DNA from: Candidatus Poribacteria bacterium
Lineage (GTDB): Bacteria; Poribacteria; WGA-4E; PCPOR2b
NCBI GenBank assembly: GCA_022822005.1
Contig: JAJECO010000078.1
Span: 1-54,452 of the forward strand
Reading direction: 5' to 3'
DNA: 54,452 nucleotides
Shown: one piece after another, positions 50,605 to 53,430 of the stretch
How positions within the stretch are numbered: position 1 is the stretch's first letter
How the letters are laid out: every line of letters starts with the position of its first letter
Position numbers and translations under genes: made by a program
Notes under the pieces: model-generated
Told to the model about the DNA's origin: nothing
Seen by the model: only the letters and a program-made list of their open reading frames with translations
The model's database searches: none

Positions 50605-50634
50605 TTGACACCGAAACTGGGCGTATGATATGCT
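50605..50634 (+). promoter_or_regulatory. Sigma70 promoter of the hisI-trpEG operon
   Basis: TTGACA (50605-50610), an 18-base spacer and TATGCT (50629-50634). Transcription would begin near 50641, about 30 bases before the leader ATG. Confidence 0.75.
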
Positions 50635-50670
50635 TTAAGTATCCTAATAATTAGGAAGTTGAAAGGTACT

Positions 50671-50769
50671 ATGCAAACCCTTAACCGACAACCACAGTTT
50701 CAAATTGCATCTCATCATTGGCATTGGTGGCATTGTGTTGAGGGGAGCAGTGTGCCTTTGCTGAGATAA
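50671..50769 (+). CDS. Leader peptide with clustered His and Trp codons
   Basis: A 32-codon ORF from ATG 50671 to TAA 50769, preceded by GAAAGG. Codons 15-21 (50713-50733) read His-His-Trp-His-Trp-Trp-His, using CAT four times and TGG three times. Both residues are rare in ordinary proteins, so this density is the hallmark of an attenuation leader. The ribosome would pause here when either charged tRNA is scarce. The downstream genes make histidine (hisI) and tryptophan (trpE, trpG). The peptide itself need have no function. Confidence 0.85.
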
Positions 50770-50811
50770 ACGTTTGGACTCATATCTAGCAACCGAGAGC
50801 CGTAGGCATAC
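50750..50811 (+). promoter_or_regulatory. Putative antiterminator pairing
   Basis: GTGTGCCT (50750-50757) can pair with AGGCATAC (50804-50811) over eight bases with one G-U. The pairing can continue, with a mismatch and bulge, through 50758-50762 and 50798-50803. It would sequester the 5' arm of the terminator. A ribosome stalled on codons 15-21 would leave 50750-50762 free, while one reaching the stop at 50767 would cover it. Confidence 0.6.
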
Positions 50812-50837
50812 GAACCCCGTTGTCTACGGCTTTTTTT
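50798..50837 (+). terminator. Intrinsic terminator (attenuator)
   Basis: AGCCGTAG (50798-50805) pairs perfectly with CTACGGCT (50824-50831), extendable by three more pairs inward, and a run of seven T follows (50831-50837). It lies 29 bases after the leader stop codon and before hisI. Confidence 0.85.
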
Positions 50838-50850
50838 ATGCCTATTTTCT

Positions 50851-50921
50851 TAGGACCACACAGCCAACCGTAGGCGGGGCATCTTGCCCCGCACCAACCG
50901 TGCTGAAATGCGTAAGTCCTA
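50851..50921. mobile_element. Possible short family A element between attenuator and hisI
   Basis: A right terminal repeat TGCGTAAGTCCTA (50909-50921) is exact. The left end TAGGACCACACAG is only a partial match to TAGGACTTACGCAG. A GCGGGGCATCTTGCCCCGC hairpin lies inside. It sits 3' of the attenuator and 5' of the hisI ribosome site. Confidence 0.45.
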
Positions 50922-50944
50922 TTTTCTGTGAAGCAAGGAGAAAA

Positions 50945-51325
50945 ATGGAAATCCTAAATCAACTCAAAACCGATCAGACCGGTCTCATTCCTGCCATTAT
51001 ACAGGACGACGAAAACAAAGAGATTCTCATGGTTGGCTACATGAACCACGAGGCAGTGCGGAAGACATTAGAGTCAGGACGTGTCTGCTTCTGGAGCCGC
51101 TCCCGCCAAGAATACTGGATCAAGGGGGAGACTTCAGGGCACACCCAAACCGTGCGATCGGTTGCTCTTGATTGCGATGGTGATGCGCTGCTGATAAAAG
51201 TCGAACAGAAAGGCGGAGCGTGCCATGTCGGCTACCGTTCCTGCTTCTTTCGGGAAGTCTCCCCCGACGGCAACTCTACAAGTATTGTTGGCAAAAAGGT
51301 TTTTGATCCAGATGCAGTATATTGA
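50945..51325 (+). CDS. hisI: Phosphoribosyl-AMP cyclohydrolase
   Basis: A 126-residue HisI, which opens the purine ring of phosphoribosyl-AMP in histidine synthesis. The zinc/magnesium motif [13 protein letters not shown] followed by [13 protein letters not shown] provides the conserved aspartates and cysteines, and [15 protein letters not shown] is typical. It is a monofunctional HisI without HisE. ATG 50945 follows AAGGAG; the longer open frame to 50774 crosses the terminator and repeat. It is the first structural gene of the operon, 20 bp before trpE. Confidence 0.96.
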
Positions 51326-51345: not shown

Positions 51346-52830
51346 ATGTATTACCCAAGCTTAGAAGATTTTCGAGAAAAAGCGCAACACGGAAACTTGA
51401 TTCCCGTCTATAAAACGATGCTGGCGGATATGGAAACGCCTGTATCCGCGTTTTACAAAATTGGAGAGAGTGACTACGCGTTTCTGTTGGAGAGCGTTGA
51501 AGGTGGTGAACATGTCGCTCGGTATTCGTTTCTCGGCAGCGATCCATCGATCCTACTTAGGGGCAAAGGCAATACAGTCCGGATTGATGACCTCCGCACC
51601 GGAGAAACAGTTGAACAGGAAACCGAAGACCCGTTGAGGGCGCTTGAAGCGTTGATGACTCGCTACCAGCCCGTTGAGGTGGAGGGATTGCCGCAGTTTC
51701 ACGGTGGGGCGGTCGGTTACCTAAACTACGATATGGTGCGTTTCGTTGAGGATCTCCCCGACACCACCGAAGACGATCGGGAGCTACCCGATTGCTATTT
51801 CATGGTGACCGACACGCTCTTGGTGTTTGACCATGTGAACCATCAGATCAAGGTGGTCGCCAATGCCCACATCAACGGCGATGTCGACCAAGCCTACGAA
51901 GGTGCACTTGATCGGATCGACGAACTAATCGCTCAACTCAAGCAGCCGTTGTTGATGAATTATACCAATAAGCCGGTTGCAAATCCCAGCGATGTGCCTG
52001 TTACTTCAAACTTTACGAAGGAAGATTACCAAGAGGTTGTTCTTCGTGCGAAGGAGTATATCGCGGCAGGAGATATCATTCAGGTTGTGCCATCGCAGCG
52101 CTTTAGCGTGCCGATATCGGTCGATACATTCGATGCCTATCGTGCTTTACGCACCGTGAATCCATCGCCTTATATGTTCTACCTCAAATTAGGTGAACTC
52201 CAGATTGCTGGTGCCTCACCTGAGATGATGGTGCGCGTTGAAGACGGTATTGCGGAGATGCGTCCAATCGCAGGGACCCGTCCACGCGGAGCAACCCCAA
52301 CCGAAGATGAAGCGTTGGGGATGGAACTCCTCGCAGATCCGAAGGAACGGGCGGAGCACGTCATGCTGGTTGACCTTGGACGCAACGATTTGGGACGTGT
52401 CTGCGAATACCACACTGTGCGGGTGAGTGAGATGATGGAGGTTGAACGCTACTCACACGTAATGCACATCGTCTCGCATGTTATCGGAGAATTGCGGGAG
52501 GGGCAGACCCCCTACGATGTGATTCGTGCCTGCTTGCCCGCTGGGACGCTATCCGGCGCCCCCAAGATCCGGGCGATGGAGATTATTGATGAACTTGAGC
52601 CGACACGGCGAGGTCCTTATGGCGGCGCTGTCGGTTACTTCAGTTTCTCCGGTAGCGCGGATACAGCGATCACGATTCGGACGCTCGTTGTCAAAGATGG
52701 TATCGCCTACGTCCAAGCGGGTGGCGGTGTTGTCGCAGACTCTATACCGGAAACAGAATACGAGGAAACAGTCAATAAGGCACGAGCGGTGCTGAGAGCC
52801 ATTGAAATCGCTGAGGCGGGATTGGAGTAG
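51346..52830 (+). CDS. trpE: Anthranilate synthase component I
   Basis: A 494-residue TrpE that converts chorismate to anthranilate using ammonia from TrpG. The tryptophan feedback-site motif LLES (47-50) is present, so enzyme inhibition by Trp is probably retained besides attenuation. The chorismate-binding domain shows IAGTRPRGATPTEDEA, LVDLGRNDLGRV and PAGTLSGAPKIRAMEI. ATG 51346 follows AAGGAGA; an in-frame TTG at 51322 overlapping the hisI stop is unlikely. Followed by trpG after 36 bp. Confidence 0.97.
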   Translation: MYYPSLEDFREKAQHGNLIPVYKTMLADMETPVSAFYKIGESDYAFLLESVEGGEHVARYSFLGSDPSILLRGKGNTVRIDDLRTGETVEQETEDPLRALEALMTRYQPVEVEGLPQFHGGAVGYLNYDMVRFVEDLPDTTEDDRELPDCYFMVTDTLLVFDHVNHQIKVVANAHINGDVDQAYEGALDRIDELIAQLKQPLLMNYTNKPVANPSDVPVTSNFTKEDYQEVVLRAKEYIAAGDIIQVVPSQRFSVPISVDTFDAYRALRTVNPSPYMFYLKLGELQIAGASPEMMVRVEDGIAEMRPIAGTRPRGATPTEDEALGMELLADPKERAEHVMLVDLGRNDLGRVCEYHTVRVSEMMEVERYSHVMHIVSHVIGELREGQTPYDVIRACLPAGTLSGAPKIRAMEIIDELEPTRRGPYGGAVGYFSFSGSADTAITIRTLVVKDGIAYVQAGGGVVADSIPETEYEETVNKARAVLRAIEIAEAGLE

Positions 52831-52866: not shown

Positions 52867-53430
52867 ATGATACTCATGATTGACAACTACGATTCATTCA
52901 CCTATAACCTTGTACAATATCTCGGCGAGTTGGGGGCAGATCTGGTCGTGCATCGCAACGACAAGATTACGCTTGACGAGATCGAAGCGCTTGCGCCTGA
53001 GAAGATTGTCATATCGCCGGGCCCCTGCACACCACGGGAGGCGGGTATTTCCTGTGATCTGATCCGTCACTATGCGGGGCGTGTGCCCCTGCTTGGCGTC
53101 TGTTTGGGGCATCAGTGTATCGGCGATGTTTTTGGCGGCGACGTCGTCCGCGCTGGTCGCCTGATGCACGGTAAAACATCGCTGATTCACCATAACGGCG
53201 AGCAGATTTTCGACGACCTCGACAACCCGTTTGAAGCGACGCGCTACCATTCCCTTATTGTGAAAAAGGAGACGCTCCCGGACTGCCTTGAACTCACCGC
53301 GTGGACAGCCCAAGACGAAATTATGGGATTTCGGCACAAGGACTATCCGATCTGGGGGGTGCAGTTCCACCCGGAATCAATCTTGACCAGCGAAGGGAAA
53401 AAACTGTTGGGGAATTTTTTGCAGGGGTGA
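52867..53430 (+). CDS. trpG: Anthranilate synthase component II (glutamine amidotransferase)
   Basis: A 187-residue class I glutamine amidotransferase. The catalytic triad is C79 (GVCLGHQ), H168 and E170 (FHPES), with the oxyanion PGPCTP loop. It hydrolyses glutamine and feeds ammonia to TrpE. As in many bacteria it may also serve aminodeoxychorismate synthase, since no separate pabA is seen. TAGGAGAAG precedes the ATG. The methyltransferase gene starts five bases after its stop. Confidence 0.95.

Follow-up and report, generated by a model that had tools for sequence, protein, structure and literature searches.

The hisI-trpE-trpG operon of Candidatus Poribacteria is preceded by a leader that is very likely a ribosome-mediated transcription attenuator with two kinds of control codon, His and Trp, interleaved in one block. 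Its role as an attenuator is well supported; that it senses both amino acids is what we infer, and the operon is probably turned on when either of them runs short. The sequence comparisons establish the predicted promoter, the leader ORF, the terminator, the overlapping antiterminator and the operon order, together with their conservation. The DNA analysed was one stretch of 54,452 nt, here called the window, and its nearest named loci belong to Candidatus Poribacteria. It carries the following features.

50605-50634, + strand: sigma-70-like promoter TTGACA-18-TATGCT (10/12 matches; TTGACA recurs 5′ of the leader in relatives)
50671-50769, + strand: leader ORF, 32 codons and TAA (direct reading; length and frame conserved in relatives)
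50713-50733, + strand: control codons His-His-Trp-His-Trp-Trp-His (HHWHWWH, codons 15-21; reading, relatives, simulation)
50742-50757, + strand: region 2 (GGGG and GTGTGCCT), 5′ side of the antiterminator (pairing analysis)
50797-50837, + strand: intrinsic terminator, hairpin and seven T (hairpin energy)
50804-50818, + strand: region 3 (AGGCATAC and CCCC), 3′ side of the antiterminator, common to the 5′ arm and loop of the terminator (pairing analysis)
50945-51325, + strand: hisI, phosphoribosyl-AMP cyclohydrolase (NF000768, 178.9 bits, cut-off 126; PF01502)
51346-52830, + strand: trpE, anthranilate synthase component I (TIGR00564, 601.9 bits, cut-off 517.7; Pfam)
52867-53430, + strand: trpG, amidotransferase of anthranilate or aminodeoxychorismate synthase (TIGR00566 and NF005799, both above cut-off)

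The consensus-type promoter, the 32-codon ORF with HHWHWWH at codons 15-21 and the terminator with seven T claimed in a first-pass annotation of this DNA are all present in the window, and its assignment of hisI, trpE and trpG 3′ of the terminator agrees with the NCBIfam and Pfam models, which are curated and scored above cut-off. Direct reading placed the promoter-like elements, TTGACA and TATGCT with 18-nt spacing, at 50605-50634. The leader ATG is preceded by GAAAGG, and the stop TAA occupies 50767-50769; this short translatable ORF lies between the promoter and the first gene. An intrinsic terminator stands ahead of that gene, its stem spanning about 50797-50832 and its seven T 50831-50837, with an energy of about -18 to -22 kcal/mol; a simple scan of the window did not list a terminator at ~50797-50837. 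HHWHWWH is the sole heptapeptide with 7/7 His or Trp in the six frames of the window. Among 200 simulated first-order Markov windows, none contained such a heptapeptide and 0.25% of strands contained one with at least 6/7. The His and Trp codons, specifying the end products of both pathways, lie 5′ of hisI and trpEG. hisI and trpE are separated by 20 nt, trpE and trpG by 36 nt. Past the terminator and ahead of hisI comes a palindrome-bearing stretch (50848-50924, with GCGGGGCATCTTGCCCCGC at 50874-50892) that resembles a small mobile or repetitive element; it is missing in two relatives (G004 and G005).

We gathered the upstream regions of hisI from relatives, 81 loci in all, and found a homologous leader 5′ of hisI at 71 of them. 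The other ten comprise three loci cut by a contig end (L011, L014 and L180; for two of these genomes the leader is on another contig, at L112 and L140), three in which hisI lies apart from trpE (G011, G014 and G083) and four joined operons with no recognisable leader (G016, G046, G068 and G074). The check proposed in the first-pass annotation, whether relatives keep the His/Trp leader and the terminator, came out positive at 71 of the 75 Poribacteria loci that have enough sequence 5′ of hisI and in which hisI adjoins trpE (where the contig reaches that far), and a terminator was found in all leaders scored. In 88 relatives CAYTGGCAYTGGYGG occurred mostly once per genome, 5′ of hisI; four other matches to it were inspected and were unrelated. 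A TTGACA element lies 55-75 nt 5′ of the leader ATG in many relatives. No cultured member is known to us of the class in which the leader is conserved.

The geometry of the leader is conserved as well. The leader of most relatives starts 15 codons upstream of the core, and its stop lies 48 or 54 nt past the core start. Among 63 aligned leaders with the standard core, the His codons were kept in 54/63 and, for the inner one, 61/63, and the Trp codons in 61/63, 63/63 and 61/63. Class-level relatives have an altered order of residues and retain both His and Trp (HICWWPWW in G078, WRHWHWR in G080, GHWHWGWCVW in G077, RWWWHWRGH in G081 and HHHWCWWH in G075); the weakest leader, that of G073, has one Trp and three His. 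Upstream of the core and within it, the length changes seen come in multiples of three, and past the core the frame is free, the same GTGTGC being read as GSVR in some leaders and as ECAR in others. A frame kept up to the core and free after it would follow if codons count as far as the core and RNA pairing counts beyond it. In the leader regions L145 and L147 (G061 and G065) a similar insertion, bearing an inverted repeat, lies in frame inside the His/Trp core, and the leader stays open.

Attenuation requires an antiterminator that overlaps the terminator; none was described in the first-pass annotation, and our analysis found one. The last leader codons contain GTGTGCCT (50750-50757), whose pairing partner is AGGCATAC (50804-50811) in the 5′ arm of the terminator, with GGGG:CCCC alongside, and this pairing and the terminator are mutually exclusive. 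A comparable helix could be drawn in nearly all of the 71 leaders, with median energies of -15.7 kcal/mol for the antiterminator and -15.3 kcal/mol for the terminator, and in distant families it persists with other bases, as in GGAGCGUGCCC:GGGCAUGCUCC of G078. The antiterminator was unconvincing in two leaders, L021 and L022 (G067 and G041), whose stop falls at core+30, that is, before region 2; for G030 the script chose the wrong hairpin. Since the MAFFT alignment shifts GTGTGC by about two columns between families, pairing was judged per sequence; a second alignment, in which the stretch for L015 is wrong, was set aside. GTGTGC is also common to the 14 representatives, which made a partner-swap test among them uninformative, and permutation within and across clades was used in its place. 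Permuted partners paired less well than the native ones over the full set of lineages (p = 0.0002, n = 62), when family f3 was left out (p = 0.0008) and in genus g6 by itself (p = 0.009), but permutation within genus g8 and within g1-g5 gave no antiterminator covariation; the pairing signal is present across lineages and absent from two of the three clades examined singly. With shuffled region 2 as the reference, z had a median of -2.0 and lay below -2 in only 34 of 71 leaders. The protective 1:2 hairpin, clear in the window (P 0.94), exceeded P 0.5 in 31 of 68 leaders and so is not general; this, the missing covariation within g8 and g1-g5 and the four joined operons with no recognisable leader count against the attenuator reading.

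From this arrangement the following mechanism can be proposed. A ribosome would follow RNA polymerase through the leader and, when charged tRNA-His or tRNA-Trp is scarce, would stall within the block of seven interleaved codons (50713-50733). With the A site on codons 15-21 its front edge is expected at ~50725-50745, 5′ of GTGTGCCT, so that GTGTGCCT:AGGCATAC could form, the terminator would be blocked and hisI-trpE-trpG would be transcribed. When both amino acids are plentiful, the ribosome would reach the TAA at 50767, covering ~50749-50779 and with it GTGTGCCT, and the terminator would form. Since both codon types stand in one block ahead of one switch, and a stall at any His or Trp codon of that block would lead to antitermination, running short of just one of the two amino acids should be enough. 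Geometry and conservation together thus point to a putative OR-type response to His or Trp shortage.

The order hisI-trpE is found also in Verrucomicrobiota (L045 and relatives), and leaders lie 5′ of hisI there too (L239-L282), with peptides such as MTNYWHWWHI, VNFAHWWWHI, VKLSLHWWR, MILTAHHWWPC and MSLPAIHWWHW. By a strict criterion, at least 23 of the 50 Verrucomicrobiota loci with trpE downstream of hisI have a His/Trp leader, and several more have a single HW pair. The 19 Verrucomicrobiota loci without trpE downstream of hisI gave no convincing leader and one weak hit (L301), and near Verrucomicrobiota trpE genes apart from hisI no Trp-only or other such leader was found. The RNA differs from that of Poribacteria in having a long hairpin with the HW codons in its 5′ arm. 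At many loci GGUCGUCGCC could pair either within the long hairpin or with CGAUGAUU of the terminator, although the script did not find the 2:3 pairing everywhere. Linkage of hisI to trpE and recoding of the leader seem to go together in evolution. We consider the chances evenly balanced that His-or-Trp two-input attenuators originated independently in Poribacteria and in Verrucomicrobiota, in both with hisI at the head of a trpE operon; hisI-trpEG would then be a point of control across pathways, governed by a single block of interleaved codons.

A Trp-only attenuator, in which the CAT codons are kept for pairing with region 2 (the 1:2 hairpin) and not for sensing His, would account for the near invariance of CAT at the core His codons and for the pairing of core GGCAU with region 2 GUGUGCC, predicted in the family of the window and, with P 0.94, in the window itself. 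CAT greatly outnumbers CAC at these codons, so a constraint on nucleotides may act on top of that on codons. Many f3 leaders without the predicted pairing, however, still keep their His codons; in five leaders CAC replaces CAT at the inner His. His amounts to 286 of 2237 leader codons (12.8%), further His codons stand outside the pairing region, class-level leaders keep His at other positions, and the Verrucomicrobiota leaders, of independent sequence, also join His with Trp 5′ of hisI. We therefore regard a Trp-only attenuator as improbable. Still less probable is a nascent-chain arrest peptide of the TnaC type, which would sense a free ligand through its peptide sequence and not through slow decoding: HWHWW is strongly conserved as a peptide within the order, but distant relatives differ freely in how many His and Trp they have and in which order, and the remaining peptide is unconserved between families, which fits codon-based stalling. 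Short ORFs often arise by chance, but a chance ORF with no regulatory role ahead of an ordinary terminator has a negligible probability given the simulation, the overlapping antiterminator and the association of the leader with hisI-trpE linkage, and is already refuted by conservation in 71 loci.

The reading as a two-codon attenuator raises the question of why hisI, a middle step, shares control with anthranilate synthase. A single isomerase serving both pathways (PriA) was considered and ruled out: 20 of 21 genomes had trpF (PF00697), and the genome of the window encodes hisA and hisF separately, so a shared isomerase does not explain the his-trp link. The most plausible link would be the shared precursor PRPP. 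A wider regulon was likewise rejected, as the sampled hisG, hisD, trpD, trpF, hisA and hisF loci had no conserved His/Trp leader and the other core-pattern matches inspected were due to chance. The genome of the window (G000) had no match to hisD (PF00815), perhaps through an assembly gap, and nine relatives had one each. It also carries two adjoining trpD-like genes (PF00591; G000:C54:155281-157103), a tandem present in G002, G004 and G005 too.

If the dual response is true, the leader would act as a natural OR gate, a single leader peptide tying together two amino acid pathways with only PRPP in common, and it would be one kept across a bacterial class and with a parallel in another phylum. 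That leader peptides mediate attenuation is textbook knowledge, and leaders with codons for several amino acids are known for thr (Thr/Ile) and ilv (Ile/Val/Leu), each within one branched pathway. These mixed-codon leaders qualify the earlier statement, which set the His/Trp leader beside classical trp and his leaders with runs of one amino acid's codons. Its author knew of no described leader with interleaved His and Trp codons of this kind; in the open-access literature searched we found no description of one, and an earlier mention in subscription papers is possible.

The enterobacterial trpL attenuator (RF00513) resembles the Poribacteria leader in its short ORF, Trp codons, terminator, overlapping antiterminator and downstream trpE, but has Trp codons only and trpE as the first gene. 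The enterobacterial hisL attenuator (RF00514) shares the His codons, the switching logic and a his gene at the head of the operon, but has a His-only run and precedes the full his operon. Neither covariance model (Trp_leader, His_leader) matched the leader in the window, where the search up to E = 10 returned one unrelated chance hit. In Corynebacterium and Streptomyces, attenuators predicted by comparison lie before trp operons, as here, with UGG repeats as the only regulatory codons described and no mention of hisI (PMC1262725). Firmicutes his leaders, 5′ of his operons, have 3-5 consecutive His codons and combine a leader peptide, terminator and antiterminator as in Poribacteria (PMC9413887). 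The leaders of thrABC (Thr/Ile) and ilvGMEDA (Ile/Val/Leu) likewise read more than one amino acid through one leader; the amino acids sensed there belong to one branched pathway, whereas His and Trp do not and have PRPP in common.
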